Shown here: positions 12,259-46,251 of the stretch, piece by piece
How the letters are laid out: the number at the start of each line of letters is the position of its first letter
How positions within the stretch are numbered: position 1 is the first letter of the stretch
Origin: Micromonospora inyonensis
GTDB taxonomy: Bacteria > Actinomycetota > Actinomycetes > Mycobacteriales > Micromonosporaceae
DNA length: 64,000 bases
NCBI RefSeq assembly: GCF_900091415.1
Contig: NZ_FMHU01000002.1
Coordinates: 682,001 to 746,000 of the forward strand
Direction of reading: 5' to 3'
Made by a program: the position numbers and the translations under genes
Notes under the pieces: model-generated
Database searches by the model: none
Seen by the model: only the letters and a program-made list of their open reading frames with translations
What the model was told of the DNA's origin: nothing

Positions 12259-13364
12259 TGGGTCCGCTGCGTTCGGTGGTGCTCTGCGGAGGGGGCACCG
12301 GGGGACACATCTACCCCCTGCTCGCCTTCGCCGACTGCCTCCGCCGGCACGACCCGAACGTCCGGATCACCTGCCTGGGCACACCGAAGGGCCTGGAGAA
12401 CGAGCTGATCCCACCGCACGGCTACGACCTGCGCACGATTCCCGCCTACCAGCTGCCGCGCTCGGTCAACATGAACCTGGTCCGTACCCCCGGTCGGATG
12501 TGGACCGCGGCCCGCGCCGCCGGCAAGGTGATCGACGAGGTGCGCGCCGACGTGGTCGTCGGCTTCGGCGGGTACGTCTCGGTGCCCGGCTACCTCGCCG
12601 CCTGGCGGCGGGACCTGCCCATCGTCATCCACGAGGTCAACGTGCCGCCGGGGGTGGCCAACCGGCTCGGCATGAAGTTCACCCGGCACGTGGCGGTGGG
12701 CTTCCCGCACCAGCCGCAGCAGGCCGAGGCGCTGCGGGACGCCCGCGTGGTCGGGGTGCCGCTGCGGCGCGGCATCGCCGGGCTGGACCGGGTCGCGTAC
12801 CGCAACGCCGCCCGGGCCCGCTTCGGGCTCCGTCCCGACCTGCCGGTGCTCTTCGTCGCCGGCGGCTCGCAGGGCGCCCGCTCGATCAACCTGGCCGTAT
12901 CCGGGGCGGCGAAGGAACTGGCCCGGTACGGCGTGCAGGTGCTGCACGTGATCGGTGCCCGCAACGAGCCGGTGCCGGTCCCCACCGACCTGCCGGTGCC
13001 GTACGTCACCCTGCCCTACCTGTCCGAGATGGAACTGGGCTACGCCGCCGCCGACCTGATGCTCGGCCGGGGCGGGGCGATGACCTGCGCCGAGGTGGCC
13101 GCGATCGGTCTGCCCACCCTCTACGTGCCGTACCCGCACAGCAACCAGGAGCAGAAGCGCAACGCGCTGCCCGTGGTCGAGGCCGGCGGCGGGCTGCTGG
13201 TGGACGACGCCGAACTCACTCCGGACTGGATCGAGCGGACGGTCATCCCGCTGATCCGCGATCCGCATCGCCTCGCCGCGATGGGTGCCGCCGCCGCCAA
13301 CTACGGCCGGCGCGACGGCGACGAGGCGCTGCTCCGGTTCGTCCACGAGGCGGTGGCCCGGTGA
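12258..13364 (+). CDS. murG: MurG, lipid II-forming GlcNAc transferase
   Basis: A 368-residue GT-B glycosyltransferase at the inner face of the membrane that adds GlcNAc to lipid I. The N-terminal GGGTGGHIYPLLAFAD, the central FVAGGSQGARSIN and the UDP-GlcNAc-binding LGRGGAMTCAEVAAIGLP with PYPHSNQEQKRNA are all present. The ATG shares a base with the ftsW stop. The gene ends in CGGTGAG, where the GTG of a repeat-encoded micro-ORF overlaps its TGA. Confidence 0.95.
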   Translation: MGPLRSVVLCGGGTGGHIYPLLAFADCLRRHDPNVRITCLGTPKGLENELIPPHGYDLRTIPAYQLPRSVNMNLVRTPGRMWTAARAAGKVIDEVRADVVVGFGGYVSVPGYLAAWRRDLPIVIHEVNVPPGVANRLGMKFTRHVAVGFPHQPQQAEALRDARVVGVPLRRGIAGLDRVAYRNAARARFGLRPDLPVLFVAGGSQGARSINLAVSGAAKELARYGVQVLHVIGARNEPVPVPTDLPVPYVTLPYLSEMELGYAAADLMLGRGGAMTCAEVAAIGLPTLYVPYPHSNQEQKRNALPVVEAGGGLLVDDAELTPDWIERTVIPLIRDPHRLAAMGAAAANYGRRDGDEALLRFVHEAVAR

Positions 13365-13522
13365 GCCGGCCGAACCCGACCAGCCCGGTGAGCCGGCCGA
13401 ACCCGACCAGCCCGGTGAGCCGGCCGAACCCGACCAGCCCGGTGAGCCGGGCGATAGCGAACGGCCCGGTGCGCAGGGCGACCACGAACGGCCCGGTGAG
13501 CCGGGCGACCGCGACGGGAAGG
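13361..13522 (+). repeat. Six tandem 27-bp repeats between murG and murC
   Basis: Three identical 27-bp units start at 13361, 13388 and 13415; three degenerate units start at 13442, 13469 and 13496. Each unit starts with GTGAGC or GTGCGC. The units are multiples of three, so all reading frames are kept through the array. The degenerate units end in GAACGGCCCG followed by GTGAGC, a boundary also seen in the repeats at 46138-46247. Confidence 0.9.
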
Positions 13523-13534
13523 TACCTCTCATGA
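13361..13534 (+). CDS. Repeat-encoded micro-ORF bridging murG and murC
   Basis: A 57-codon frame starting at the GTG (13361) that overlaps the murG stop, and ending in a TGA (13532-13534) that overlaps the murC ATG. The product would be VSRPNPTSP repeated three times and then diverged copies: Arg/Pro/Thr/Ser-rich, with no known domain. Overlap at both ends suggests that ribosomes could pass from murG through this frame into murC. It may be functional only as a translational bridge, or be chance within a repeat. No homology is claimed. Confidence 0.4.
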   Translation: MSRPNPTSPVSRPNPTSPVSRPNPTSPVSRAIANGPVRRATTNGPVSRATATGRYLS

Positions 13535-15078
13535 ACACCGCGCAGTTCTCCCCGGCCGGCACACTGACCGCCGAGGACCTGGGCACCATCCACCTGATCG
13601 GGGTGGGTGGGGTCGGCATGAGTGGCCTGGCCCGGCTCTTCCTGACCCGGGGCATCCGCACCACCGGCAGCGAGCTGCGCGAATGGCCCTCGCTGGCCGG
13701 CCTGCGCGCGCTGGGCGGCACCATCCACATGACCCACGAGCCGGCCAACCTGGACGGTGTCGACACGGTGGTCTACTCGTCGGCCATCCCGGCCGACCAC
13801 CTGGAGATGGTGGAGGCCCGGCGACGCGGCCTGCGGGTGCTGCACCGCTCCGAGGCGCTCGCGGCGGCGATGACCGGCCGGCGGGCGGTGGCGATCGCCG
13901 GCACCCACGGCAAGACCACCACCACCTCGATGGTGACGATGGTGCTCCAGCAGGCCGGGGAGGACCCGTCGTTCGTCATCGGCGGGGAGATCTCCGAGGT
14001 GGGATCGGGCGCGCACCACGGCACCGGGCAGTACTTCGTGGTGGAGGCCGACGAGAGCGACCGGTCGTTCCTGATCTACCGGCCCTTCGTCTCGGTGATC
14101 ACCAACATCGAGCCCGACCACCTGAACACCTACGGCGACTTCGCGACGCTGAAGGCGGCCTTCGCCGACTTCGCCCGACTCACCGACCCGGCGGGCTTCA
14201 TCGTCACCTGCGCGGACGACCCGGCCGCCCGGGACCTGGCCGCGACGCTGCGGGCCGAGGGGCGCCGGGTGTACACGTACGGTGAGTCGCCCGACGCCGA
14301 CCTGCGGCTGACCGACATGTCGTCGTCGGCCCGGGGGGCCCGCTACCTGGCCGAGGTGGACGGACACGCGCTCGGGGAGATCCGGCTGCCGGTGCCCGGC
14401 CGCCACATGGGACTCAACAGCGCCGCCGCGGTGCTCACCGCGTATCTGCTGGACCTGCCGCTGACCGCCACCACGGACGCGCTGGCGGCCTTCCCCGGCG
14501 TCCGGCGGCGGTTCGAGCGCAAGGGCGTGGCCGACGGCGTCCTGGTCTACGACGAGTACGCCTACCACCCGACCTCGATCACCCTCGCCCTGCGGACGCT
14601 GCGCGAGGTGGCCGGGGACGGCCGGTTGATCGTGGTGTTCCAGCCCTACCGGCTCTACCGCACCCGCGACCTCCAGGCGGAGATCGCCGAAGGGCTGGCC
14701 GTGGCCGACGAGGTGGTGCTGCTGGAGGTCTTCGGCCCGGGTGAGCTGCGCCAGCCGGGGGAGGGGTCGGCCGCCCTGATCGAGGCGATCGACCTGCCGG
14801 GCGAGCGGAAGGTCTTCGTCGACTCGTGGGAGGCGGCGCCGGTGGAGGTGGCCCGCCGGGCCCGGCCCGGCGACGTGGTGGTCACCATGGGCGCGCCGCC
14901 GATCTCGCTGATGGGCGACCAGCTCCTCGACGCGCTGCTGGCCCGCACGGGCGCCCCCGGTGCGGGCGGCCCGGCGGTCTCCGGGGCCCCGGTCGGCACC
15001 ACCACCGCCCCGGTGACCGACGCCACCGGGGACGCCCCGGCCGCCGGTACGGACGGCGCGTCGCCCGCGGCCGGATGA
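13531..15078 (+). CDS. murC: MurC, UDP-MurNAc:L-alanine ligase
   Basis: A 515-residue Mur ligase adding the first amino acid to UDP-MurNAc. The N-terminal Rossmann motif IHLIGVGGVGMSGLA and the P-loop GTHGKTTTT (from residue 124) are clear; the last ~35 residues are a Pro/Ala/Thr-rich tail. I chose the ATG at 13531 (GGGAAGG 9 nt upstream). The frame is open upstream through the 27-bp repeats, where it would read GEPAEPDQP repeats, so an N-terminal extension cannot be fully excluded. The stop overlaps the ftsQ ATG. Confidence 0.94.
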   Translation: MNTAQFSPAGTLTAEDLGTIHLIGVGGVGMSGLARLFLTRGIRTTGSELREWPSLAGLRALGGTIHMTHEPANLDGVDTVVYSSAIPADHLEMVEARRRGLRVLHRSEALAAAMTGRRAVAIAGTHGKTTTTSMVTMVLQQAGEDPSFVIGGEISEVGSGAHHGTGQYFVVEADESDRSFLIYRPFVSVITNIEPDHLNTYGDFATLKAAFADFARLTDPAGFIVTCADDPAARDLAATLRAEGRRVYTYGESPDADLRLTDMSSSARGARYLAEVDGHALGEIRLPVPGRHMGLNSAAAVLTAYLLDLPLTATTDALAAFPGVRRRFERKGVADGVLVYDEYAYHPTSITLALRTLREVAGDGRLIVVFQPYRLYRTRDLQAEIAEGLAVADEVVLLEVFGPGELRQPGEGSAALIEAIDLPGERKVFVDSWEAAPVEVARRARPGDVVVTMGAPPISLMGDQLLDALLARTGAPGAGGPAVSGAPVGTTTAPVTDATGDAPAAGTDGASPAAG

Positions 15079-15890
15079 GTCCCGGCCCGGCGCGGGGGCG
15101 GACGGCCGGCGCGGAGCCCGGGGGCCGGCGCGGCCCGGCCCGCCGGTGGCAGCTGGTCCGGGCCGGCACGGACGCGGTGCCGCCGTCGACCCGCCGGTTC
15201 ATGCAACGGGCCCGGCAGCGTCGGCTGCGCGCCGCGCTGCCGTGGGCGCTGGCGGGCGGGGTGCTGCTCCTGGCCGGGCTGGTCGCCTGGGTGCTGCTCG
15301 GTACCGGCCTGTTCGGGGTCCGCGAGGTGCGGGTGGTCGGGGGCGAACTGGTGACCCCGGTACAGGTCCGTCAGGCGGCGGCGGTGCCGGACGGTGTCCC
15401 GCTGGCCCGGGTGGACCTGGCGGACACGGCCCGCCGGATCGGCGAGCTGCCGCCGGTGGAGCGCGCCACGGTGACCCGGGACTGGCCGGGCGCCCTGGTG
15501 GTACGGGTGGTGGAGCGGACGCCGGTGGCGGTGGTCCCACAGGGGGAACGGTTCGTCGTGGTGGACCGGTCCGGGGTGGCGTTCCGTACGGAACCGGCGC
15601 GCCCGGCGGGCCTGCCGTTGGCGCGGGTGGCCCGCCCCGGGCCGGACGACCCGGAGACCCGGGCGGCGCTGGAGGTCCTCGCCGCGCTCACCCCGCAGCT
15701 GCGCGAGGCGCTGGTGGACGTCACGGTGGAGGGGCTGGCCCGGATCACGGTCCGGCTCTCCGGTGGACGCACGATCGTCTGGGGTGACGCGACCCGGGGC
15801 GAGGACAAGGCCCGGGTGGCGACCACCCTGCTCGGTCGGAATGCCGACACCATCGACGTCAGCGCACCCGACGTGGTGACGTTCCGGTGA
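15075..15890 (+). CDS. ftsQ: FtsQ, divisome POTRA protein
   Basis: A 271-residue bitopic membrane protein. A basic cytoplasmic tail (1-52) leads to one membrane helix (about 53-76). The POTRA domain (about 79-150, starting FGVREVRVVGG) and the FtsQ beta domain follow. FtsQ recruits FtsL/FtsB and holds the septal synthase inactive until constriction. The ATG at 15075 overlaps the murC stop. ftsZ follows after a 241-bp gap with its own promoter region. Confidence 0.9.
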   Translation: MSPGPARGRTAGAEPGGRRGPARRWQLVRAGTDAVPPSTRRFMQRARQRRLRAALPWALAGGVLLLAGLVAWVLLGTGLFGVREVRVVGGELVTPVQVRQAAAVPDGVPLARVDLADTARRIGELPPVERATVTRDWPGALVVRVVERTPVAVVPQGERFVVVDRSGVAFRTEPARPAGLPLARVARPGPDDPETRAALEVLAALTPQLREALVDVTVEGLARITVRLSGGRTIVWGDATRGEDKARVATTLLGRNADTIDVSAPDVVTFR

Positions 15891-15999
15891 TCCGGGACGC
15901 CGGGAAGGGTGAGCCTGCCCGCTCTCCACGACGACACGCCGGTCAGGTCCTTGGCTCATCGGGCAGGGACGCTTACGTTGCCCGGAAGAGGATCAGTAG

Positions 16000-16060
16000 T
16001 TGACATAACTGTAAGCCTCTAGTAGAGGGTGAAGGTTAGCCCTTCGTCTTCACGGGTGAT
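16000..16060 (+). promoter_or_regulatory. ftsZ promoter and structured leader
   Basis: A consensus -35 TTGACA (16000-16005) is followed 17 bp later by TAGAGG (16023-16028), a weaker -10. Two small hairpins follow or overlap: CCTCT/AGAGG around AGT (about 16016-16028) and GTGAAG/CTTCAC (from 16029). A second TTGAC-like motif lies near 16065. This fits separate control of ftsZ within the cluster. The rest of the ftsQ-ftsZ gap holds no gene. Confidence 0.5.
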
Positions 16061-16131
16061 AGTTGACGTCGACGGCGATCCGGGGCGAGCCGTCGGTCGG
16101 CGTGGCCAATCTCGAAGGGAAAGGACCGGAG

Positions 16132-17247
16132 ATGACACCTCCGCACAACTACCTGGCGGTCATCAAGGTCGTCGGCATCGGGGGTGGCGGCGTCAACGCC
16201 GTCAACCGGATGATCGAGGTTGGGCTCAAGGGCGTCGAGTTCATCGCGATCAACACCGATGCGCAGGCGCTGCTGATGAGTGACGCCGACGTCAAGCTCG
16301 ACGTCGGTCGTGAGTTGACCCGGGGGCTCGGCGCGGGCGCCAACCCCGACGTGGGCAAGAACGCCGCCGAGGACCACCGCGACGAGATCGAGGAGGTCCT
16401 CAAGGGTGCCGACATGGTCTTCGTGACCTGCGGCGAGGGCGGCGGCACCGGCACCGGGGGCGCGCCGGTCGTGGCCAACATCGCTCGCAAGCTGGGGGCG
16501 CTGACCATCGGTGTGGTCACCCGGCCGTTCTCCTTCGAGGGCAAGCGGCGGCAGGTGCAGGCCGAGTCCGGCATCGAGGAACTGCGCAACCAGTGCGACA
16601 CGCTGATCGTCATCCCGAACGACCGGCTGCTGGCCCTCGGCGACCGGGGCATCAGCATGATGGACGCCTTCCGTCAGGCCGACCAGGTGCTCCTCTCCGG
16701 TGTGCAGGGCATCACCGACCTGATCACCACGCCCGGTCTGATCAACCTGGACTTTGCCGACGTCAAGAGCGTGATGAGCGGCGCGGGCAGCGCGCTGATG
16801 GGCATCGGCAGCGCCCGGGGCGAGAACCGCGCGGTCGAGGCGGCCGAGGCGGCCATCTCCAGCCCGCTGCTGGAGCAGAGCATGGACGGCGCGCGCGGCG
16901 TGCTGCTCTCCATCGCCGGCGGCTCCGACCTGGGCCTGTTCGAGATCAACGACGCGGCCCAGCTGGTCACCGACGCGGCCCACCCGGACGCGAACATCAT
17001 CTTCGGCGCGGTCATCGACGACGCCCTCGGCGACGAGGTGCGGGTGACGGTGATCGCGGCGGGCTTCGACGGTGGCGCACCGGCGTACAAGGCGGTCGAG
17101 TCGGGGCGCAAGAGCAACCAGAACCAGCCGACCACCCCGCCCTCGCCGGTGCCGCCGCAGACCACGATGCCCCCGCCCACCCAGTCGCCGCGCCGGGTCC
17201 TCTTCGACGACGTCGACGTGCCCGACTTCCTCAAGAACGGGTCCTGA
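16132..17247 (+). CDS. ftsZ: FtsZ, tubulin-like division GTPase
   Basis: A 371-residue GTPase that forms the cytokinetic ring. The tubulin signature [13 protein letters not shown] starts at about residue 103. After the core (to about 320) comes a Pro/Thr/Gln-rich linker and the C-terminal tail [18 protein letters not shown], the docking site for SepF and other partners. I chose the ATG at 16132 (AAGGA 7 nt upstream); the frame is open to 16063. In mycelial actinomycetes FtsZ is needed for sporulation septa. Confidence 0.97.
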
Positions 17248-17256
17248 GCCGCGCCC

Positions 17257-18003
17257 ATGACCGACCGGACCACCCCGGCACGACCCGACCGCCGCGCCGA
17301 ACTCGCCGCCGGGCTGGCCCGGGTCCGGGCGCGGATCGCCGAGGCGTGTGCCGCCGCCGGGCGGGACCGCGCCGAGGTGACGATGATCGCGGTGACCAAG
17401 ACCTACCCGGCCGGCGACGTGCTCGCGCTGGCCGGGCTCGGCGTCGTGGACGTGGGGGAGAACCGCGACCAGGAGGCGTCCGGCAAGGCCGCCGAGGTGG
17501 CGGCGGCCGGGGTGCGTCCCCGGTGGCACTTCATCGGGCAGCTCCAGCGCAACAAGTGCCGCTCGGTGGTCCGCTACGCCGACGTGGTCCACTCGGTGGA
17601 CAGCGTCCGGCTGGCCGACGCGCTCGGTGCCGCGGCCAGCCGGGAGCGGGACCAACCACTGGAGACGTTGGTCCAGGTCAGCATCGACGGTGACCCCGGC
17701 CGGGGTGGAGCGCTGCCGGATTCCGCCGACCCGGACCGGGGCCTGCACCGGGTGGCCGAGGCGGTGGCCGGGGCCGGTCCGCTGCGGCTGGCGGGGCTGA
17801 TGGCGGTGGCGCCGCTGGGTTGGGAGCCGCGGCGGGCGTTCGCCCGGCTCGCCGAGGTGGCCGAGGAGTTCCGGACCGTCCATCCGGGGGCCACCGCACT
17901 CTCCGCCGGCATGAGCGGCGACCTGGAGGTCGCGATCACGTACGGCGCGACACATGTCCGCGTCGGCAGCGCGTTGCTCGGAATGCGTCCCACGCTGCGG
18001 TAG
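17257..18003 (+). CDS. yggS: YggS/PLPBP-family pyridoxal phosphate homeostasis protein
   Basis: A 248-residue single-domain PLP-binding TIM-barrel protein. The PLP-lysine motif AVTKTYP is at about residues 45-51, with GENRDQEA, HFIGQLQRNK and the C-terminal SAGMSGDLEVAI signature. The family buffers pyridoxal 5'-phosphate and has no known catalytic reaction. It starts 9 nt after ftsZ, as in other Gram-positives, but the ylmD/pgeF gene that usually sits between them is missing. Confidence 0.92.
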   Translation: MTDRTTPARPDRRAELAAGLARVRARIAEACAAAGRDRAEVTMIAVTKTYPAGDVLALAGLGVVDVGENRDQEASGKAAEVAAAGVRPRWHFIGQLQRNKCRSVVRYADVVHSVDSVRLADALGAAASRERDQPLETLVQVSIDGDPGRGGALPDSADPDRGLHRVAEAVAGAGPLRLAGLMAVAPLGWEPRRAFARLAEVAEEFRTVHPGATALSAGMSGDLEVAITYGATHVRVGSALLGMRPTLR

Positions 18004-18189
18004 CCTTCGCGGGAAGGCAAATTACATCAGTGTTGTTTGGGCCGGCGTCCCACGTCGGGGGTCAGGCGGACGACCGCGAATCGTCCGCTGTGGTTGCCGG
18101 CCCGGTCCGGTGGGCAAGGGGAGTCCCACACGCGACACGCGACACGGGCACGGGGGCGCGTGCCGCACTGCGGACGGAAGGGCGCGGCG
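18003..18189 (+). other. yggS-sepF intergenic region with two hairpins
   Basis: GCCTTC/GAAGGC (18003-18018) forms a small stem right at the yggS stop. GCGGACGA/TCGTCCGC (18066-18088) forms a second one 100 nt before sepF. The AT-richer stretch 18017-18040 could carry a promoter, but I see no convincing -35/-10 pair. Confidence 0.4.
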
Positions 18190-18888
18190 ATGGGTGCACT
18201 GCGCAAGGCGGGGGTCTGGCTCGGTCTCGTCGAAGAGGACGACGAGCGGGGCTACGACGACGGCGGCTACGAGAAGGGTGGCTACCGCGACTCGCGGTAC
18301 CGGCAGAGCCGGTACGCCGAGGAGTTCGCCGAGGACGACGAGGACGAAGCCGACGACCCGCCGGCTCCCCGGCCACGGCCGGGTGAGCGGACCCGGGTGG
18401 GCGAGCGGGCGACCACCCGCACGGAGAGCGACCGGGGGGACGGCGACCGGTTGGAGCGTGCCGACCGGACGGAGCGGGCGAGTGTCCGCTCGATCACCCG
18501 CTCCGGCGCCGGTGAGGGTTCCGGCGTGGCCTACCACACCCGGGACAACCTCGCCCTGGCACCGCAGACCCAGCCCCGGGAGCGGACCGTGGTCGCCGAG
18601 GAGGAGCAGCGTTACCAGATCACCACGCTGCACCCGACGACCTACCGCGAGGCCCGGACCATCGGTGAGCACTTCCGCGACGGCGTTCCGGTGATCATCA
18701 ACCTCACCGAGATGGACGAGGCGGATGCCCGCCGTCTGGTGGACTTCGCCGCCGGTCTGGCGTTCGGGCTGCGGGGTACGATCGAGCGCGTGACCAACCG
18801 GGTGTTCCTGCTCTCACCGGCCAACGTCCAGGTCACCGCGGAGGACAAGGCCAAGATCGCTGAGGGTGGCTTTTTCAGCCTGGGGTAA
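18190..18888 (+). CDS. sepF: SepF, membrane anchor of FtsZ
   Basis: A 232-residue protein. A short amphipathic N-terminus (MGALRKAGVWLGLV) probably binds membrane. A long charged linker (about 16-140) rich in Asp/Glu/Arg/Tyr follows, then the SepF domain (about 145-228). SepF polymerises and tethers FtsZ to the membrane in actinobacteria that lack FtsA. I chose the ATG at 18190 because the amphipathic helix starts there; the frame is open to 18037. Confidence 0.94.
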   Translation: MGALRKAGVWLGLVEEDDERGYDDGGYEKGGYRDSRYRQSRYAEEFAEDDEDEADDPPAPRPRPGERTRVGERATTRTESDRGDGDRLERADRTERASVRSITRSGAGEGSGVAYHTRDNLALAPQTQPRERTVVAEEEQRYQITTLHPTTYREARTIGEHFRDGVPVIINLTEMDEADARRLVDFAAGLAFGLRGTIERVTNRVFLLSPANVQVTAEDKAKIAEGGFFSLG

Positions 18889-18917
18889 CACCCCCCGACC
18901 GAGGGACGTCGCCTGCT

Positions 18918-19217
18918 GTGTTGTCGATCCTGCTCCAAGTGCTGTACCTGATCCTGTACGTCTTCCTGCTCCTCCTCCTGGCCCGTTTCGTGCTCAGCGC
19001 CGTCCTCCAGTACGGTCGCCGCTGGCAGCCCGGTCGGGGAGCGTCGGCGGGACTGGAATCCGTGTGGAGCGTCACTGATCCGCCTCTCAGGGCGTTGAGG
19101 CGGGTGATCCCTCCGCTGCGGATTGGTACCGTGAGCATCGACCTGGCTTCCCTTGTGCTCCTGGTTATCCTGTTCGTGCTGATGGAGTTCGTGTTAAGGC
19201 GGCTGATCCTCGGGTGA
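18918..19217 (+). CDS. yggT: YggT family membrane protein
   Basis: A 99-residue protein with two hydrophobic segments (about 2-27 and 72-95) and the family motif RPxxRxxIPP-like PLRALRRVIPPLR between them. YggT/YlmG proteins lie next to sepF and divIVA in many Gram-positives and are linked to division or envelope functions; the molecular role is unknown. GTG start 29 nt after sepF. Confidence 0.88.
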   Translation: MLSILLQVLYLILYVFLLLLLARFVLSAVLQYGRRWQPGRGASAGLESVWSVTDPPLRALRRVIPPLRIGTVSIDLASLVLLVILFVLMEFVLRRLILG

Positions 19218-19267
19218 GTGCCCGGTGACAGCCCGCTACGCGGCCGCAACTGACCCGAGGAGTTTCG

Positions 19268-20068: not shown

Positions 20069-20079
20069 GCCCTCGACCA

Positions 20080-20095: not shown

Positions 20096-20116
20096 ACGAC
20101 GCGACGGGGGTGAGCC

Positions 20117-26093: not shown

Positions 26094-27869
26094 TTGGACG
26101 GCACCGAGACCGGTTGGGGTCGGTCAGCCGAACCAGCACCACGTTGGCGCACGCTGCTCGACCGGGCTCGGCTCGGTGGCCGCGGCGGCGGGGAGCAGGT
26201 CGAGACCGACCGGGAGGTGGACGCACCGTTCCTGCCGCCGGCACCGGACCCGTTGCCCCGGCGCAGTGGTGGCAACGGCTACGCCGGGCGGGCGCGGGCG
26301 ATCGAGCCGGCGTCCGGCGGGGAGTACCGCTCGGATCCGGGGTACCCGGTGGAGCCCGACCGTCCGGTCGAGTCGGCGTACCGTGCCGACTCCGGATACC
26401 GGGCTGATCCTGGGTACCGTGTGGAACCGGTCTACCAGGGCGGAACGGCGTACCCGGCCGAGTCGACCTACCGCGTCGAGCCCGCCTACCGCACCGACGC
26501 CGACTCCGGCTACCGCGCGGGTTCCGGTTACCGCGCCGAGGACGGCTACCGCGCCGAGGACGGCTACCAGTCCGAGGACGGCTACCGCTCCGGCGACGGC
26601 TACCGGCCCGGCGAGGGCTACCGCGCCGACGACGGCTACCGCGCCGGCGACGCCTACCGCGCCGACGACGGCTACCGCGCCCAACCGGCCTACCGGCAGC
26701 CCGAGCCGGCGTACCCGGCGGAACCGGCGTACCCCGCCGAGCCGAGCTACCGGGCGGAGCCGGCCTACCCCGTCGAGCCGGCCTACGTGATGCCGGTGCA
26801 GCCGGTCTACCAGCCCGAGCCGGCCCACCCGGTCGAGCCGGTGTACCGGGAGCCGGCCCCGTCGGCGGAGTCCCGGTACGCGCTGCTGGAGCAGTACCGG
26901 CACAACCCCTACCCCGCCGAGAGCCGCTACGGGGCGTTGGAGGGCGGCTACCGCCAGCCGGAGCCCGCGTACCCGCCGCCGGTGGCGCGGGCGGCGGTGC
27001 CGGCGGTCGTCGACCGGAGCTACCCGGCCCGGCTGGAGTGGCGCCCGCAGTCCGTCGAGAGCGAGCAGGAGCACGCCGCGGCGATCCTGCGGCGCGACTT
27101 CGGCACCCCCCGGGTGCTCGCCTTCGCCAACCCGAAGGGCGGGGTGCACAAGACCACCGCCACCGTGCTGGCCGCCGCGACGGTGGGCAGTGTGCGGGGG
27201 CGGGGTGTGCTGGCCTGGGACGACAACGAGCTGCGCGGCACCCTCGGGTTGCGCGCCGGCAGCGCGCGACACGCCCGGACGATCCGGCACCTGATCGCCG
27301 ACCTCGCCACGATCGAGATCAGCCAGGGCCCGGACCTGGTGGAGCAGCTCGACGACTACCTGCGGCACGCCTCCGACGGCTCGTACGACGTGCTGGCCGG
27401 AGAGGAGAGCCCCCGCTTCGCCCAGAAGCTCGACAAGTACACCGTCCAGCGGGTGCTCGACCTGCTCCGCCGTACCCACGACGTGATCTGCGTCGACACC
27501 GGCAACAACGTGGAGAGCCCCAACTGGCGGGCGGTGATGAACGCCGCCGACCAGCTCGTGCTGACCACGGTGCCCCGGGAGGACGCGGCGTTCAGCGCCG
27601 ACTGGATGCTGGACCTGCTGCACGAGGTCGGTATGGGCGAGCTGGCCGACAACGCGGTCACCCTGCTCTCCTGTCCCAACCCGGACCGTTCCCCGCTCCT
27701 GGACGACCTGCAACGGCACTTCGCCACGCGGACCCGGGCGGTCGCGGTGGTGCCCTACGACCCGGCCCTGGAGACCGGCTCGTCGATCGAGTACCACCAG
27801 CTCCAGCCGGCGACCCGCGAGGCGTGGCTGAGCGCCGCCGCGGTGATGCTGGAGCCCTTCGCCCGGTGA
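26094..27869 (+). CDS. ParA/MinD-like ATPase with a long hexapeptide-repeat tail
   Basis: A 591-residue protein. Residues 1-75 are Arg/Gly-rich. Residues 78-310 are a Tyr/Arg/Pro/Asp/Glu low-complexity tract with Tyr every six residues over long runs (96-132 and 140-200). Residues 335-590 are a P-loop ATPase with the deviant Walker A KGGVHKTT (from K348), VICVDTGNNVE as Walker B region and a MinD-like C-terminus. The TTG start at 26094 has GGGAGG upstream. ATPases of this family position chromosomes, division machinery or secretion complexes; EspI of type VII secretion has a similar disordered-tail-plus-ATPase plan, but no other ESX gene is near. Function unknown. Confidence 0.8.
   Translation: MDGTETGWGRSAEPAPRWRTLLDRARLGGRGGGEQVETDREVDAPFLPPAPDPLPRRSGGNGYAGRARAIEPASGGEYRSDPGYPVEPDRPVESAYRADSGYRADPGYRVEPVYQGGTAYPAESTYRVEPAYRTDADSGYRAGSGYRAEDGYRAEDGYQSEDGYRSGDGYRPGEGYRADDGYRAGDAYRADDGYRAQPAYRQPEPAYPAEPAYPAEPSYRAEPAYPVEPAYVMPVQPVYQPEPAHPVEPVYREPAPSAESRYALLEQYRHNPYPAESRYGALEGGYRQPEPAYPPPVARAAVPAVVDRSYPARLEWRPQSVESEQEHAAAILRRDFGTPRVLAFANPKGGVHKTTATVLAAATVGSVRGRGVLAWDDNELRGTLGLRAGSARHARTIRHLIADLATIEISQGPDLVEQLDDYLRHASDGSYDVLAGEESPRFAQKLDKYTVQRVLDLLRRTHDVICVDTGNNVESPNWRAVMNAADQLVLTTVPREDAAFSADWMLDLLHEVGMGELADNAVTLLSCPNPDRSPLLDDLQRHFATRTRAVAVVPYDPALETGSSIEYHQLQPATREAWLSAAAVMLEPFAR
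26376..26787 (+). repeat. Degenerate 18-bp tandem array encoding Y-x5 hexapeptides
   Basis: Units such as GGCTACCGCGCCGAGGAC follow one another, two of them identical, with others differing by a few bases. At protein level a Tyr recurs every six residues (GYRAED, GYRSGD, AYPAEP types). Third-codon-position differences are few in the central units, pointing to recent expansion by slippage or unequal recombination. Confidence 0.85.
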
Positions 27870-29386: not shown

Positions 29387-31964
<2,578 letters not shown>

Positions 31965-31968
<4 letters not shown>

Positions 31969-32576
31969 GCCGGACCGCCCGGGTGGAGCGGACCACCAAG
32001 GAGACCAGGGTGCTCGTCGAGATCGACCTCGACGGCACCGGCGCGGCGGAGATCAGCACCGGGGTCGGCTTCTACGACCACATGCTGCACCAGATCGCCC
32101 GGCACGGCGGCTTCGACCTCACCGTGCGGACCGTCGGCGACCTGGAGATCGACGCCCACCACACCATGGAGGACACCGCGCTCGCCCTCGGCGCCGCGTT
32201 CGACCAGGCGCTGGGGGACAAGGCCGGCATCCGGCGGTACGGCTCGGCGACCGTCCCGATGGACGAGGTGCTCGTCCGCGCCGCCGTCGACCTCTCCGGC
32301 CGACCGTACGTGGTGCACGACGAGCCGCTGCTCACCCCGTACATCGGGCCGGTCTACCCGACCAGCATGACCCGGCACATCTGGGAGTCGTTCGGGCAGG
32401 CGGCCCGGATCACCCTGCACGTGGACGTGCTCCGGGCGGCCCGGCCCGGCGGCCACCCGGACGCGCACCACGTGGTGGAGGCGCAGTTCAAGGCGGTCTC
32501 CCGGGCGCTGCGCGAGGCCACCGCGGTCGACCCGCGCTCGGCCGGCGTGGTGCCGAGCACCAAGGGGGCGCTGTGA
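31965..32576 (+). CDS. hisB: HisB, imidazoleglycerol-phosphate dehydratase
   Basis: A 203-residue monofunctional dehydratase with two paired metal-binding repeats: DHMLHQIARHGGFDL and DAHHTMEDTALALG in the first half, and HIWESFGQAARI with DAHHVVEAQFKA in the second. It converts imidazole-glycerol phosphate to imidazole-acetol phosphate. The ATG at 31965 was chosen by homology; the frame is open upstream inside hisC. Confidence 0.95.
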
Positions 32577-36584: not shown

Positions 36585-36615
36585 AGGCACCCAGCACCCG
36601 GCACCCGGTGCCCGG

Positions 36616-36678
36616 CACGCGTCGCCCGGTGCCCGGCACGCGTCGCCCGGTGCCCGGCACGCGTCGCCCGGCGCCCGG
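36616..36678 (+). repeat. Three tandem 21-bp repeats before hisF
   Basis: CACGCGTCGCCCGGTGCCCGG-type units start at 36616, 36637 and 36658 (the last with one change), preceded by a partial unit (36598-36615). Non-coding; MluI-like ACGCGT occurs in each unit. The remaining gap, 36679-36737, shows nothing else. Confidence 0.85.
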
Positions 36679-36737
36679 CGTGTGCCGGCACGGGCCGGGG
36701 GCGTCGGCGGGCCGGGGTGGCGGAACGGGGTGGGCGG

Positions 36738-38796: not shown

Positions 38797-38800
38797 GCAT

Positions 38801-38842
38801 GCCAACCTAAGGGCCAATCGCGGCGGTTCGAGAGAGCCAATT
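38801..38842. promoter_or_regulatory. Direct repeats GCCAAYC/T in the YczE-MocR intergenic region
   Basis: GCCAACC (38801-38807), GCCAATC (38813-38819) and GCCAATT (38836-38842) lie 12 and 23 bp apart in the 60-bp divergent promoter region, close to whole helical turns on one DNA face. MocR regulators are known to bind direct repeats, so this is the likely shared operator. Confidence 0.6.
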
Positions 38843-38856
38843 GGGAGGGAGTGGCC

Positions 38857-40311: not shown

Positions 40312-40370
40312 GCGCCGCCCCCGGGCAACCGTCCGGCGCACGGACCCCTCGTCCGGCCGGGACACGGGCT

Positions 40371-40412
40371 GGCCCCGGGCGGTTCCCTCGCGACGAGGGT
40401 CCGCCCGGGGCC
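40371..40412. terminator. Strong bidirectional hairpin between convergent genes
   Basis: GGCCCCGGGCGG (40371-40382) pairs with CCGCCCGGGGCC (40401-40412), and CCCTCG (40385-40390) with CGAGGG (40394-40399), around a 3-nt loop. It lies between the MocR gene (plus) and the ligase gene (minus) and can end transcription from both sides. Confidence 0.75.
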
Positions 40413-40422
40413 GGGTGGTGGG

Positions 40423-42249
40423 TCAGATCTCGGCGAGCGCGCCGTCGTACATCTTCTCGATCTCGGTGGCGAAGTTGCTCTCCACCCCGCGCCGCTTGAT
40501 CTTGAGCGACGGGGTGATCTCGCCGTCCTCGATGGTCAGGTCGCGCGGCAGGATGGTGACCTTCTTGATGGTCTCCCAGCGGTTGAGCTTGCTGTTCAGC
40601 TCCGCGACGTACCCCTCGACCATATCCTTCGCCTGCGGCGAGGTGGCGATCGCGGTGTAGTCGCGACCCGCCAGCGGCCCGCCCGCCGCCCAGCCCTTGA
40701 TCGCGTCCGGGTCGAGGGTGACCAGCATCGTGCAGAAGTTGCGGGCCTGGCCGATCACGAGAGCCTGCGAGGTGTACGGGCAGATCGCCTTGAACATGCC
40801 CTCAATGTGCGACGGCGCGACGTACTTGCCGCCGGAGGTCTTGAACAGGTCCTTCTTCCGGTCGGTGATCTTCAGGTAGCCGTCGGCGTCCAGCGTGCCG
40901 ATGTCCCCGGTACGGAAGAACCCGTCCTCGGTGAAGGCGGTGGCGGTCTCCTCGGGCAGGTTGTGGTAGCCACGCATCACCGGACGGCCCCGGAGCAGGA
41001 TCTCCCCGTCGGTGTCGATGCGGCACTCCAGGTCGCCCATGGCCTGCCCGACGGTGCCGATCCGCAGCCCGTCCGGCCGGTTGACGAAGTTGCCGGCGCT
41101 GGTCTCGGTGAGGCCGTACCCCTCGGAGATCGGCAGGTTGGCCGCGGCGAAGAAGGTGGCGATCTCCGGGCTCAGCGGAGCGGACCCGGAGACCAGCACG
41201 CGGATCCGGCCGCCGAGCCGGTCCTGGATCTTGCTGAACACCAGCTTCTCGGCCAGCCGGTGGCGCAGCCGGAGCCCGCCCGGGACCGGCTTGCCGGCCT
41301 GCTCCAGGGCGACCTTCTCCTTGCCGACCCGGACCGCCCAGGCGAAGATCTTCGCCTTCACGCCGCCGGCGTCCCGCGCGGTGGTGACCGACTTGTTGTA
41401 GACCTTCTCGAAGACCCGGGGCGCGCCGCACATCAGCGTCGGACGGACCACGGAGAGCAGTTCGACCAGCTTGTCCACCCGGCCGTCGACGTAGGTCGGC
41501 AGGCCGACGTGGGTCGCCCCGCAGAGCAGGGTTTTGCCGAACGAGTGGGACAGCGGGAGCCAGAGGTACTGGAGGTCGTCGCTGCGGAGCAGCCCGACGT
41601 CGGCCTGCGCGACCCCCTCCCAGCACCAGCCGCCGTGCAGCAGCTCGACGCCCTTGGGGCGGCCGGTCGTCCCGGAGGTGTAGATCAGCGTGGCCAGGTG
41701 GTCCGGTCCGAGGTTCTCGACGATCCCCTCGACGAGGCCCGGCTCTGCGGCCAGCGCCCGTGTGCCCTGCTCCTCCAGCTCGGCGAGGGTGAGCTGGGGG
41801 ACGGCCGCGCCGGGGTCGGCGGTGCCGTCGAAGAGGACCACGTGGGTCAGCGCGGGCAGGTCGGCCCCGGCGATCTTGGCAGCCTGGGTGGGGTTCTCGG
41901 CGAAGAGCACCCGCGAGCCGGAGTCGGCGACGATGTAGCAGGTGTCCTCCGGCTCGGTGGTCGGGTAGACCGTGGTGGTCGCCCCGCCCGCGCACATGAC
42001 GCCGAGGTCGGCGACGACCCACTCCAGCCGGGTGTTGGCCAGGATGGCCACCCGGTCCTCGAGTCCGACACCCAGACCGTGCAGGCCGGCGGCGACCGCC
42101 TTGGCCCGGTGCCCCACCTGTTCCCAGGTCAGCCAGACCGGTCCCGAGTCGTCGGGGGCGGGATGGGCGAAGGCGGGGCGGTCCGGGGTGGCCGCCACGC
42201 GCTTGAGGAACATGTCCGGGATCGAACGGTACGGTACATCGAGAGCCAT
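40423..42249 (-). CDS. Long-chain fatty acid:CoA ligase (AMP-forming)
   Basis: A 608-residue ANL-superfamily enzyme of the FadD15/AMP-dependent long-chain type. Motifs are the P-loop YTSGTTGRPKG, GYGLTETSAG, the TGD core in FFRTGDIG and the hinge DRKKDLFKTSGGKYVAPS. It would activate free fatty acids for lipid synthesis or degradation at the membrane face. I chose the ATG at 42249 (GAAGG 9-12 nt upstream); a GTG at 42291 is in frame but lacks a ribosome-binding site and lies in a GTGACCACGATCAC palindromic stretch. Confidence 0.92.
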   Translation of the reverse strand: MALDVPYRSIPDMFLKRVAATPDRPAFAHPAPDDSGPVWLTWEQVGHRAKAVAAGLHGLGVGLEDRVAILANTRLEWVVADLGVMCAGGATTTVYPTTEPEDTCYIVADSGSRVLFAENPTQAAKIAGADLPALTHVVLFDGTADPGAAVPQLTLAELEEQGTRALAAEPGLVEGIVENLGPDHLATLIYTSGTTGRPKGVELLHGGWCWEGVAQADVGLLRSDDLQYLWLPLSHSFGKTLLCGATHVGLPTYVDGRVDKLVELLSVVRPTLMCGAPRVFEKVYNKSVTTARDAGGVKAKIFAWAVRVGKEKVALEQAGKPVPGGLRLRHRLAEKLVFSKIQDRLGGRIRVLVSGSAPLSPEIATFFAAANLPISEGYGLTETSAGNFVNRPDGLRIGTVGQAMGDLECRIDTDGEILLRGRPVMRGYHNLPEETATAFTEDGFFRTGDIGTLDADGYLKITDRKKDLFKTSGGKYVAPSHIEGMFKAICPYTSQALVIGQARNFCTMLVTLDPDAIKGWAAGGPLAGRDYTAIATSPQAKDMVEGYVAELNSKLNRWETIKKVTILPRDLTIEDGEITPSLKIKRRGVESNFATEIEKMYDGALAEI

Positions 42250-42372
42250 CGCTGTAACCGCCTTCAGGGGTGGTGACGTGATCGTGGTCACGCTGGTCTG
42301 CGGTTACCGAAGGGTATTGCGTACACCCGGTCATCGGCTAGCCCCGGTCCTCCGGGGCCGTGTCCCGGGTCG

Positions 42373-43323
42373 TCAGGCGTACCGGGAGGCGGCGAGTGAC
42401 CAGTCCCAGGTGGCCCGGATCCAACCCCGGCGGGCCGCCACGAACCGGTGGGTGGCCGGGTCGGCCGTGCGCAGCAGCGCCGTCTCCCGCTCGGTGTACG
42501 CCGTCAGCGCCCGGTTGAACAGCTCCGCCGCGGCCAGCAGGGCGGCCTGCTCGGCGTGCTGCTCCTCCCCGGCGATGGCGGCGACCAGGTTGTGCCCGTC
42601 GCCGGTCGACCGGTACTCCTTGCCGTAGGAGAAGACGTCGTTGCACCAGCAGACCAGGTTCGCGGCGAGGGTCTCCAGGGTGGCCAGCGCCGGGTCGGTC
42701 CGCTCGTCCGGCGGCGGCCCGTCGTACGCCAGGTCGGTGAGGGTGAAGCTCGGGTGGACCGCGCCGGTGTGCCGGCGCATCTGCACGTACTCGGCGACGC
42801 CGGGCACCCGCCGGTGCTCCCGGTTGGCTGCCTCCCAGAGCAACGCCAGGAGGTACTCCCGCAGCTGCCCGGTGAAGGCGAGCAGCACCGCCGGACGGGC
42901 GTGCGCGCGGACCCGTCGGCACAGGTCGTGCAGCGCGACCCCGCGCGGACCTGCGGTGCCGAGCAGCGCCGGGGGCGCCGGGTCGCCCCGCAGGTCGAGC
43001 ACGTCGAGCAGGCCGGCCACGGTGGGGGCCAACCGGGTCGGGGTGTCGCCCAGCCCGTCCTCGTCGCAGGCGTCGTCCACCGCGAAGAGCCAGGTGATCA
43101 GATCGGTCAGCAGGCGGAGCCGGGCCACCGGTGCCTCCGGGCAGGCCCGCCCGGCCAGGTCGGCGGCGGCGGCCCCGGCGAGCCGTCGTCGGCTCTCGGC
43201 GGACCTGGTCAGGCCCAGCCGGTCGGCCCAGTCGGCGCTCTCCCGGGCGACCTCGGCGACCGCCGGGTGACACCGGCCCGGGAACGGTGGTTCCCGTAGC
43301 GTAGAAAGCGCGAAACTCCGCAT
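42373..43323 (-). CDS. Orphan class I terpene synthase
   Basis: A 316-residue protein with the bacterial class I terpene cyclase motifs. The metal-binding DDACDE starts at D83; the NSE triad is N228/S232/E236 in CNDVFSYGKEY. An arginine pair (R183/R184) sits about 45 residues before it as the probable diphosphate sensor, and the C-terminal R314-Y315 pair is also present. It should ionise a prenyl diphosphate (FPP or GPP/GGPP) and cyclise it. I cannot tell the product. No P450, methyltransferase or prenyl synthase lies nearby. The start ATG at 43323 has a GGGGGTGG tract upstream. The gap 43324-43472 holds no gene. Confidence 0.88.
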   Translation of the reverse strand: MRSFALSTLREPPFPGRCHPAVAEVARESADWADRLGLTRSAESRRRLAGAAAADLAGRACPEAPVARLRLLTDLITWLFAVDDACDEDGLGDTPTRLAPTVAGLLDVLDLRGDPAPPALLGTAGPRGVALHDLCRRVRAHARPAVLLAFTGQLREYLLALLWEAANREHRRVPGVAEYVQMRRHTGAVHPSFTLTDLAYDGPPPDERTDPALATLETLAANLVCWCNDVFSYGKEYRSTGDGHNLVAAIAGEEQHAEQAALLAAAELFNRALTAYTERETALLRTADPATHRFVAARRGWIRATWDWSLAASRYA

Positions 43324-43472
43324 GCCACCCCCTGCCACACCGTCCCGGGCGGGGCGGACCGACAAATCCGTGCGGGGGCAAGATATCGGACTTGTTCTTT
43401 CCGTTCGCCCCCGCCCCGGTCCGGAACGGTCGCGCCCCTGCCTGGCGGCCCGGTGGCCGGCCGCGGGGTCGG

Positions 43473-44102
43473 TCAGAGGCCCAGCTTGGCGGTACGCAGC
43501 CGGTCGGCGGTCGCCGCCGGTCCGTCCAGTTGCACCCGGGCCGCGCGCTGACGCCCGGAGAGGAAGAGGGTCAGTTCGCCGGGGGCGCCGACCAGCCGGA
43601 GCGCCTCGCCGCCGCGCCCGCAGCGCACCTCCCCGTGCCCCGGGGCCTGGACGAGCAGGCTCGCCGGGAACCGGCGCAGCGCGAACCGGGCCATCGGGGC
43701 GACCCGCTTCCACAGCGCGGCGTGCAGCCCGACCGGCAGGTCGCGCGGCTGCCAGCCGGGGTCGGCCCGCCGGACGTCCTCGTGGTGGATGAAGAACTCC
43801 ATGGTGTTGACCAACTCGTCGGTCAGCGGGTTGCTCAGCGGGCTCCACACCGGCGGCTGGCGCACCTGCGCCACCAGTTCGGCCCAGGGACGCGCCGCGA
43901 TCCGCAGCCGCATCCGCTCGGCGTACCCGCGCAGCGGGGGCAGCAGGATCCCGCCCGCCGCGTCCGGCCGGCGCTCGCGGACCACCAGGTGGGCGGCGAG
44001 GTCCCGGGCCACCCAGCCCTCGTTCAGGGTCGGCGCGTCGGGGCCGAGGGCCAGCATGAGGTCGGCGAGCGCCTGGCGCTCCGATCGGGCGTACCGCGAC
44101 AT
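43473..44102 (-). CDS. TIGR03085-family (DinB/maleylpyruvate isomerase-like) protein
   Basis: A 209-residue protein of the four-helix DinB-like fold. RDLAAHLVVRERRPD carries the first conserved His, and MEFFIHHEDVRRADPGW supplies the HHEDVRR signature of TIGR03085. Members probably bind a metal; some relatives are mycothiol-dependent enzymes, and mycothiol is the main actinobacterial thiol. Its own reaction is unknown. I chose the ATG at 44102 because TACCAT ends 6 nt upstream and the homologous region starts here; the frame is open to 44165. Confidence 0.85.
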   Translation of the reverse strand: MSRYARSERQALADLMLALGPDAPTLNEGWVARDLAAHLVVRERRPDAAGGILLPPLRGYAERMRLRIAARPWAELVAQVRQPPVWSPLSNPLTDELVNTMEFFIHHEDVRRADPGWQPRDLPVGLHAALWKRVAPMARFALRRFPASLLVQAPGHGEVRCGRGGEALRLVGAPGELTLFLSGRQRAARVQLDGPAATADRLRTAKLGL

Positions 44103-44108
44103 TCCCCG

Positions 44109-44114
44109 ATGGTA
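44109..44114 (-). promoter_or_regulatory. -10 box (TACCAT) for the TIGR03085 gene, leaderless type
   Basis: On the minus strand TACCAT ends 6 nt before the ATG at 44102. Confidence 0.4.
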
Positions 44115-44183
44115 GGCCGCGCCCCGCCGCACCACCCGACATGGCGCGGCGCACTCGTGCCACACCGGACAATTCCGAACCCG

Positions 44184-44206
44184 GGTCGGCGTGCGGGACG
44201 CCGACC
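44184..44206. promoter_or_regulatory. Inverted repeat upstream of the ABC exporter
   Basis: GGTCGGCGT (44184-44192) and ACGCCGACC (44198-44206) pair perfectly around GCGGG, 49 nt before the exporter start. A GATAAT box follows at 44222-44227. It may be an operator or a leader hairpin. Confidence 0.4.
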
Positions 44207-44254
44207 GGTAAGGATGAGGGAGATAATTGCGGCTTACGGCGGGGGAAGTAGAGC

Positions 44255-46141
44255 GTGTCGAGCGGGACGAGTACGGCCGTGCTCATCCGGGGCCTCCGGG
44301 TCCTCGGGCGGGCCGTCCGGGAACAACCACGGATCTTCACGATCGCGGTCGGCGGCAGCGTGCTCTTCGGCGCGATGGTGATCGGCAGCGCGTACGTGAT
44401 CGGCGCGGTGGTGGGCGACGTGGTGGTGCCCTCCATCACCCGGGGCTCGGTGGAGGCCGGCGTGCTGGCGCTGGCCGCCGCCGCCCTTCTCGGGATCAGC
44501 GTGCTGCGGGTGATCGGCATCTTCGGGCGGCGTCTCGGCGCCGGTTACATGCAGTACCGCCTCCAGGCGGCCTACCGCCGCCGGGTGACCCGACGCTATC
44601 TGGAGCTGCCGCTGGCCTGGCACCAGCGGCACGCCACCGGCACCCTGCTCTCCAACGCCAACTCCGACGTGGAGGCCGCCTGGTACCCGATCGCGCCGCT
44701 GCCCTTCGCGGTCGGGACGCTGGTGATGGTGGTCGGGGCGGTCGTCACGCTCTTCCTCACCGACTGGGCGTTCGCCCTGGTCGGGGTGGCCGTCTTCCCC
44801 GCCCTGTTCGCGCTCAACGTGGTCTACTCCCGGCGGATGGCCCCCCGGCAGGCCCGCGCCCAGCAGTTGCGCGCCGAGGTCAGCGGCATCGCCCACGAGA
44901 GCTTCGACGGCGCGCTGGTGGTCAAGACGATGGGCCGGGAGGCGCAGGAGACCCGCCGGTTCGCCGCCCGCGCGGGTGAGCTGCGCGACGCGCTGATCGC
45001 GGTCGGCCGGCTGCGCGGTCTGTTCGACCCGCTGCTGGAGACCCTGCCCAGCATCGGCACCCTGGCGGTGCTGGTGGTCGGGGCGGTCCGGTTGCGCCAG
45101 GACGCCATCACCGTCGCCGAGCTGGTCAGCGTCGCCTTCCTGTTCACCGTGCTGGCCGTACCGGTGCGGGCCATCGGCTGGGTCCTCGCCGAACTGCCGC
45201 GCAGCGTGGCCGGGTGGGACCGGGTGCAGCAGGTGCTCCGCGCCACCGGCGAGATGGCCTACGGGGACCGGGTCGCCGACCCGGCCGACGGCGGGCCGGC
45301 CACGCTCGCCTTCACCGACGTCTCCTTCCGGTACGAGCCGGCCGAGGCGCACCTGCCCGGCGCCGAGGTGCTCGGCGGGGTCACCTTCACCGTGCCCGCC
45401 GGGCGCACCGTCGCCCTGGTCGGCCCGACCGGGGCCGGCAAGTCCACCATCACCGCCCTGGCGGTGCGCCTGGTCGACCCGGACGCGGGCACCGTCACCC
45501 TGGACGGGGTCGACCTGCGGGAGCTGACCGCCGCCTCGCTGGCCGGCAACGTCGCGCTGGTCGCCCAGGTGCCGTTCGTCTTCGACGACACGGTGCGCGC
45601 CAACATCACCCTGGACCGGCCGGGGATCAGCGACGACGACGTCTGGGCGGCACTGCGGCTGGCCGAGGCGGACGGGTTCGTCGCGGCCCTGCCCGAAGGG
45701 CTGGACACCCGGGTCGGCGAGCGGGGCACCTCGCTCTCCGGCGGTCAGCGGCAGCGACTCACCCTGGCCCGCGCGCTCGCCGGCCGGCCCCGGCTGCTGG
45801 TGCTCGACGACGCGACGAGCGCGGTCGACCCCCGGGTCGAGGCGGCGATCCTGGCCGGGCTGCGCTCGTCGGCGACCGACGGAACGGGTCCGGGCACCTC
45901 GATCATGGTGGCGGCGTACCGGCGGGCCACCATCGCCCTGGCCGACGAGGTCATCTACGTCGAGCAGGGCCGGGTGGTGGCCCGGGGCACGCACGCCGAG
46001 CTGCTCGCCACCGTGCCCGGCTACGTGGACCTCGTCACCGCGTACGAGCAGGCGGAGACCGACCGCGAGCAGGCCCGTACCTACCAGGATCCGGCGGTGG
46101 TCCCGGTGGCCACCGGCCTCGAAGTGGAGATGGACCGGTGA
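44255..46141 (+). CDS. ABC exporter half-transporter with a degenerate ATPase site
   Basis: A 628-residue half-transporter: six membrane helices (about 25-310) and an ATP-binding domain (about 350-590). Walker A GPTGAGKST (from 390) and signature LSGGQ (from 494) are intact. The catalytic Glu after Walker B is Asp (D519 in LDDATSAVD) and the switch His is Tyr (Y555). With the next gene it forms a heterodimer like TM287/288. The substrate is unknown (drug, lipid or peptide). GTG start. The gene ends in a GTGA that opens the junction repeats. Confidence 0.9.
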   Translation: MSSGTSTAVLIRGLRVLGRAVREQPRIFTIAVGGSVLFGAMVIGSAYVIGAVVGDVVVPSITRGSVEAGVLALAAAALLGISVLRVIGIFGRRLGAGYMQYRLQAAYRRRVTRRYLELPLAWHQRHATGTLLSNANSDVEAAWYPIAPLPFAVGTLVMVVGAVVTLFLTDWAFALVGVAVFPALFALNVVYSRRMAPRQARAQQLRAEVSGIAHESFDGALVVKTMGREAQETRRFAARAGELRDALIAVGRLRGLFDPLLETLPSIGTLAVLVVGAVRLRQDAITVAELVSVAFLFTVLAVPVRAIGWVLAELPRSVAGWDRVQQVLRATGEMAYGDRVADPADGGPATLAFTDVSFRYEPAEAHLPGAEVLGGVTFTVPAGRTVALVGPTGAGKSTITALAVRLVDPDAGTVTLDGVDLRELTAASLAGNVALVAQVPFVFDDTVRANITLDRPGISDDDVWAALRLAEADGFVAALPEGLDTRVGERGTSLSGGQRQRLTLARALAGRPRLLVLDDATSAVDPRVEAAILAGLRSSATDGTGPGTSIMVAAYRRATIALADEVIYVEQGRVVARGTHAELLATVPGYVDLVTAYEQAETDREQARTYQDPAVVPVATGLEVEMDR

Positions 46142-46251
46142 GCGTGAGGAGTGAGCTTGCGAGCCCCGCAGTCGCGAACAGCGACGGCCCGGTGAGCGTG
46201 AGGAGTGAGCTTGCGAGCCCCGCAGTCGCGAACGAGAGGCTGATCCGGTGA
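46138..46251 (+). repeat. Two 54/56-bp junction repeats forming a micro-ORF between the ABC genes
   Basis: Copy 1 (46138-46191) and copy 2 (46192-46247) share an identical 42-bp core beginning GTGAGCGTGAGGAGTGAGC. A 37-codon frame starts at the GTG overlapping the first gene's stop and ends at the TGA (46249-46251) overlapping the second gene's GTG. The peptide would be VSVRSELASPAVAN twice plus linkers. The core contains GTGA three times (offsets 0, 6 and 13), offering stops in two frames and restarts. A truncated relative lies at 31933-31955. Confidence 0.9.

Follow-up and report, generated by a model that had tools for sequence, protein, structure and literature searches.

Mycobacterial interspersed repetitive units (MIRUs), which reportedly go back to Supply et al. 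1997, are repeats without marked dyad symmetry. In Mycobacterium tuberculosis, MIRUs are described as units of 40-100 bp at 41 places (PMC2734929), and according to a 2025 review they appear to be mobile, insert at start codons and contain an internal open reading frame (ORF) coupled to the gene at -4, with a likely minimal impact of the insertion on expression of the coupled gene (PMC12548453). Effects on expression are also on record: a longer repeat array before fpg accompanied modestly higher mRNA in M. tuberculosis (PMC2734929), and the MIRUs of senX3-regX3 can drive senX3-independent regX3 expression (PMC4213456). Here we analyze a 64,000-nucleotide stretch of Micromonospora inyonensis DNA (hereafter the window), taken from a host genome of 6.92 Mb in four contigs, in which three gene pairs, murG/murC, hisC/hisB and two ATP-binding cassette (ABC) exporter genes, are bridged by micro-ORFs that overlap both neighbours. 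We conclude, with a probability of about 0.82, that the his and ABC bridges are small dispersed, probably mobile, MIRU-like elements that would pass ribosomes on from one gene to the next, and that the mur bridge is a locally expanded micro-ORF.

All three bridges lie on the forward strand and have GTGA as their 5' end and ATGA or GTGA as their 3' end; the coordinates, codon counts and overlaps given for them in the initial annotation were all verified in the sequence. The murG gene (12258..13364) ends in CGG-TGA, with the stop at 13362-13364, and the GTG at 13361 opens 57 codons that close in the TGA of the ATGA at 13531-13534, where murC (13531..15078) begins; the bridging micro-ORF therefore occupies 13361..13534. 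The hisC-type aminotransferase gene (30797..31921, stop at 31919-31921) is followed by 16 codons from GTG 31918 to the ATGA at 31965-31968 (bridge 31918..31968), which starts hisB (31965..32576). The first ABC exporter gene (44255..46141, stop at 46139-46141) leads into 37 codons from GTG 46138 to the GTGA at 46248-46251 (bridge 46138..46251), and the second exporter gene spans 46248..48062. Pfam agrees with the identification of murG, murC, hisD, the hisC-type aminotransferase, hisB and the two ABC exporters. The hisD/hisC junction, which is of like kind and adjoins the filled hisC/hisB junction, is a plain 4-nt overlap at 30797-30800.

One dispersed element of about 50-60 bp accounts for both the his and the ABC bridge. 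Its 5' box GTGAGCGCGAGGAGTG is followed by a middle part that varies, the core AGCCCCGCAGTCGCGAAC, a Shine-Dalgarno (SD)-like stretch in most copies, a spacer and the downstream start codon, and its units are frequently tandem. At the his site the micro-ORF lies within a copy whose 5' part is shortened or diverged relative to the element family, with the core CCGCAGTCGCGAAC at 31936-31949 and a likely SD, GAGAGG, at 31950-31955. The ABC micro-ORF spans two units that are in frame with each other, one of 54 nt (46138..46191) and one of 56 nt (46192..46247), the latter having a likely SD GAGAGG at 46234-46239 and ending in the GTGA overlap. The same core stands at both sites and is read in different frames, as the initial annotation had proposed for a repeat common to the two. 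RNA folding of four element copies was no better than that of shuffles (z from -0.89 to +1.85).

To place these copies in context, we assembled 168 distinct arrays from the window, its own genome and retrieved loci, of which 18 lay too near an end, leaving 150 analysable. In this set, 133 stand in sense orientation between co-directional genes, 9 have a divergent upstream gene, 5 a sense upstream and an opposed downstream gene, and 3 are antisense; operon membership is inferred from gene order. When only arrays with a recognisable 5' box are counted (n = 130), the numbers are 119 co-directional, 8 with a divergent upstream gene, 3 with an opposed downstream gene and none antisense to both neighbours, so that this census bears out the expectation that repeat copies sit at co-directional junctions. 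In 91 of 124 well-delimited elements the upstream stop is contained in the element's GTGA; in the others it lies before the element with a gap (21) or inside it (5), or the upstream neighbour is divergent (7). Because the position of the upstream stop varies in this way, it is the start codon downstream that serves as the element's fixed reference, and stop/start overlaps are strongly favoured as sites.

In 104 of the 119 co-directional boxed insertions, a ribosome leaving the upstream gene at its stop would have an unbroken path into the downstream reading frame, in 90 by overlap restart and in 14 by N-terminal fusion. These 104 insertions precede 65 distinct downstream genes, 54 with overlaps throughout, 9 with fusions throughout and 2 mixed. 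When the 124 well-delimited elements are followed from their own GTG, the frame runs into an overlap in 105 and into a fusion in 15, and reaches neither in 4. In the host genome itself, the path is kept in 10 of the 13 scored arrays, the weaker BLAST copies being unscored. A different short tandem repeat (GCCCGCTGATGGGCCGC...) was seen in the 63-nt co-directional gap of locus L140, where it makes successive TGATG stop/start steps.

Orthologous junctions were compared in the 30 best-matching genomes per junction out of 61 searched, the window itself included. The three series together are continuous in 87 of 89 junctions, with spacers from -4 to more than 200 nt. At the ABC pair one locus was unreadable, and the other 29 junctions are all continuous: 12 are plain overlaps, and 17 contain 1-3 units. 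At murG/murC, 29 of 30 are continuous, comprising 11 plain overlaps, 10 repeat-free micro-ORFs and 8 counted with a repeat, one of which (L234, with 4 mismatches) is probably a chance match; the path is broken in L225. At hisC/hisB the count is again 29 of 30, and in the exception, L212, hisC ends in TAG without an overlapping start, as read by eye. Since the same junctions are plain in relatives and nearly all remain continuous, the proposal that repeats insert into overlaps without breaking the path appears to hold. In five his loci (L189, L191, L192, L198 and L211) the hisC frame itself extends to the ATGA of hisB, and HisC C-terminal tails such as APQPRPKGT (L191, L192, L198) match element sequence; the element, seemingly decayed there, has probably become part of the HisC protein in these five.

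The variation among orthologues also bears on the possibility that the elements tune expression, i.e. that the relative output of the two genes is set by unit number and length and that copies are kept for this reason. Unit number at the one ABC site is 0, 1, 2 or 3 among the 29 orthologues, which are species-level genomes, and the higher mRNA that accompanied the longer array before fpg points in the same direction. However, plain and filled states alternate within one genus at genes of core pathways, and the path test alone cannot separate tuning from tolerance. We therefore regard tuning as rather unlikely, though it is the strongest of the alternatives to mobile elements that leave the path intact.

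The lengths of the elements are informative on what is being retained. The start-to-start length of the last unit (n = 114) falls at 2, 0 and 1 mod 3 in 95, 17 and 2 cases, compared with 50, 33 and 31 expected if the internal and spacer lengths were independent. The commonest combinations of internal and spacer length, 31+12, 29+14 and 26+14, are unlike in length and the same in phase, and the next commonest, 31+13, is an in-frame fusion. Single-unit insertions counted once per site (n = 42) give 34, 8 and 0 at 2, 0 and 1 mod 3, and the tandem periods (n = 86) divide into 41, 41 and 4 at 0, 2 and 1 mod 3. Together with the reading of the core in two frames, these values indicate that the elements retain their overall phase rather than a peptide.

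Alternatively, a portable ribosome-binding site could be all that the element is kept for, with the frame of the micro-ORF incidental. An SD-like motif (lenient, 4 or 5 bases) does lie between core and start at 56 of 64 sites, counted one per site and without a shuffled baseline. The deficit at 1 mod 3 (2 of 114 last units and 4 of 86 tandem periods) and the compensation of phase between internal and spacer lengths are at odds with this explanation, as are the 104 unbroken paths out of 119, which would be unexpected if frame were irrelevant; we consider it improbable.

A conserved small protein as the product of the micro-ORFs is still less probable. Those that start from the element's GTG do begin alike, with MSARS or close to it. 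Nevertheless, two reading frames of the core are used almost equally often among the 104 path-keeping insertions (50 and 49, with 5 in the third frame), and a 100-codon array frame, used as a single query, gave only one homologue among 8 candidates. Because the two frames are used equally, the stop-restart path rather than the peptide appears to be the conserved thing, in agreement with the suggestion made at the outset and with the 104 of 119 paths.

The background frequency of such paths was taken from co-directional pairs of well-scoring called genes in the window and 120 retrieved loci. Of the 80 gaps that contain the repeat, 61 have a micro-ORF path, as against 20 of the 153 gaps of 20-200 nt that lack it; the inclusion of single restarts that continue in frame into the gene raises these values to 69 of 80 and 47 of 153. 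A Fisher test of 59/76 (repeat, gaps of 30-400) against 20/153 yields p = 3e-22, with gap ranges that differ and rows that are partly kin. The repeat-free baseline is if anything too high, because it still includes the mur bridge of the window and one truncated element (L096). Although high-GC DNA is rich in GTGA overlaps and open frames, with a -4 overlap in 97 of 362 repeat-free co-directional pairs and the micro-ORF path in those 20 of 153 longer gaps, the 61 of 80 with the repeat and the 87 of 89 continuous orthologous junctions make chance a scarcely credible origin of the double overlaps at the three junctions, as had been argued from the window alone.

We also looked at the bases flanking the insertions. 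With one row per site, at least 4 identical bases stand before the element's GTGA and before the downstream start at 15 of 64 sites, compared with a mean of 1.2 and a largest value of 6 in shuffles. Among 112 rows, in which a site may recur, six are identical at 9 of 9 bases before both junctions, against 0.09 expected. The agreement has clean ends at 9-10 bases in L168, L095, L060 and L040; in L063 the agreement spans 14 bases, and that in L050 is explained by an older upstream unit. GTGAG is present at the downstream start in all six rows, and could be contributed by the element, the target or both. This pattern suggests a target duplication of about 9 bp directly before GTGAG, as would result from transposition at the start codon.

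Taken together, these observations are consistent with the following scheme. In the sequences, the element lies immediately ahead of start codons, has a GTG of its own to start from and, in most copies, an SD-like stretch towards the 3' end, and its length, mostly 2 mod 3, makes its frame close on the downstream gene in a fresh overlap. It would insert at a start codon, duplicating about 9 bp just ahead of GTGAG. Ribosomes finishing the upstream gene may then re-initiate on the micro-ORF, terminate, and re-initiate on the downstream gene, and because of this hand-over the insertion is proposed to disturb coupling little. Selection would purge copies whose insertions or deletions break the path, and fusions to either neighbour would be tolerated. 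The murG/murC bridge would represent a different state at a like junction, in which a 12-codon micro-ORF has been expanded by an in-frame 27-bp repeat. A bolder version, to which we give somewhat less than even odds, is that of a start-targeting mobile element whose body and 9-bp duplication together measure 2 mod 3 and so rebuild the -4 overlap; such an element would hide in operons, might have an origin independent of MIRUs, and would have had some copies absorbed into proteins as HisC tails or N-terminal fusions.

Several points weigh against the mobile, path-preserving interpretation. The path is absent in 15 of the 119 insertions, mostly where the upstream stop precedes the element without an overlap, and the 21 of 124 elements with a gap to the upstream stop and the 7 of 124 with a divergent upstream gene indicate that an operon overlap is not obligatory. 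The phases of whole arrays, one per site and with multi-unit arrays included (n = 64), are less clean, with 41, 16 and 7 at 2, 0 and 1 mod 3; the phase and duplication counts omit rows without an in-frame start 6-25 nt past the core, and 112 of the 124 elements were retained for the array-length and duplication comparisons. Insertion sites are partly common by descent. No clear 9-bp duplication was found at ATGA sites, so that GTGAG may be part of the target, and no transposase turned up, none having been sought by family. The base-insertion control is asymmetric, since adding 1 nt to the spacer leaves the path in 76% of cases and adding 2 nt in 21%; the former value arises because the overlap becomes an N-terminal fusion, which the path test accepts. 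Tighter evidence than this control is provided by the 90 versus 14 split between overlaps and fusions and by the phase counts. A control with shifted target frames (0 and 2 of 133) was discarded as biased, because wrong frames are seldom open over 200 nt.

The mur bridge differs in make-up. Its micro-ORF contains an in-frame tandem array of a 27-bp unit in 5.9 copies (13356..13515), which precedes, in the same frame, a 3' module (13496..13534) that forms a 12-codon micro-ORF ending in ATGRYLS-stop, with GGGAAGG as the likely SD for murC. Close versions of this module stand alone at several orthologous junctions, and several relatives have a micro-ORF of 11 to 13 codons before murC, mostly ending in ATGRY plus 2-3 residues. 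The 27-bp unit itself has one strong locus in the genome, the next best match having E 1.3e-4 when the best 40 of 172 candidates were scored. Among 30 murG/murC junctions, one, that of the window, has it in tandem; L239, L240 and L244 have a single unit match at up to 7 mismatches. RNA folding of the array is somewhat better than that of shuffles (z -2.5). The array is most plausibly a tandem expansion that arose locally inside a pre-existing micro-ORF. With its single strong locus and single tandem junction, it was rejected as a second mobile family, and the initial view that the bridges comprise two repeat families is not upheld.

Other tandem repeats were noted in passing. At murG/murC, L232 has an apparently separate 36-bp in-frame tandem duplication with a TTGA start and an ATGA end. 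Within the window, 18-bp tandem arrays at 26446-26847 lie in a called gene (26421-27869) and give a repetitive protein stretch, and a GC-rich 21-bp array, 7-bp based, is found between called genes at 36586-36680.

The distribution of the dispersed element was examined from the host genome out to the order. In the host genome the 18-base core gives 20 matches at up to 1 mismatch; the census there combined pattern and BLAST searches (best 40 of 59 BLAST candidates scored) with 17 retrieved stretches, and diverged copies are under-counted. The exact 16-base core occurs in 60 of 61 same-genus genomes, at 2 to 57 matches per positive genome, and in 0 of 40 genomes from other families of the order, and the reversed core pattern has no match in either set. 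Across the family, the exact core was found in 148 of 300 genomes and 19 of 44 genera, and the reversed pattern once in each of 2 genomes. A scan for the core matched at least 120 contigs, and of the 80 listed by name 63 belong to Micromonospora. Among the matches listed by name, nine loci come from other genera of the family; the 5' box is present in six and absent in three, and six are scorable as co-directional, with the path kept in 6 of 6. Eight further loci among the matches listed come from unrelated bacteria; they have no 5' box and appear to match by chance. The 5' box alone marks 22 places in the host genome, and two of them (G000:C2:3347528-3347543 and G000:C2:1774807-1774822), without a counterpart among the BLAST matches scored, may be truncated copies.

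No report of such repeats in Micromonospora was found in a literature search, most subscription papers being outside its reach. As judged from sequence comparison, the kind of phenomenon is already known from MIRUs, and the family, its hosts, the phase evidence and the duplication appear to be new. Micromonospora offers many copies and many plain/filled orthologue pairs for study, so that the movement of the elements, and whether stop-restart chains keep operon genes coupled, become directly testable questions. The tiny frames borne by the repeats could let ribosomes pass between neighbouring genes, and the phase statistics constitute natural evidence that continuity of termination and re-initiation matters to these high-GC bacteria.

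Among described systems, termination-reinitiation coupling shares the form of the junction, as the Micromonospora junctions are overlaps of the ATGA/GTGA or TGATG type (PMC6728339); it differs in that here a repeat inserts one or more whole extra coupling steps. The RU sequences of enterobacteria are likewise small intergenic repeats described as mobile and able to carry ORFs (PMC2759123). They are, however, described there as MITE-like, i.e. of the inverted-repeat kind, whereas four copies of the Micromonospora element folded no better than shuffles, and its position is tied to start codons. The likeness to MIRUs extends further: both are direct repeats, of 40-100 bp in MIRUs, single or tandem, intergenic and in one orientation relative to the genes; both have an internal ORF that overlaps the next start by about -4 (here in 105 of 124); and both lie at start codons or stop-start overlaps that are empty in relatives (here 91 of 124, together with the plain orthologues). 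The differences are the other hosts and the absence of the exact core from the 40 other-family genomes, MIRUs having been compared by description. The unit of about 50 bp plus a duplication of about 9 bp, the single core used in two frames and the compensation of phase were measured here for the Micromonospora element. In its positional and ORF features, the element family thus seems to behave like MIRUs, which indicates that the MIRU way of life extends beyond mycobacteria.

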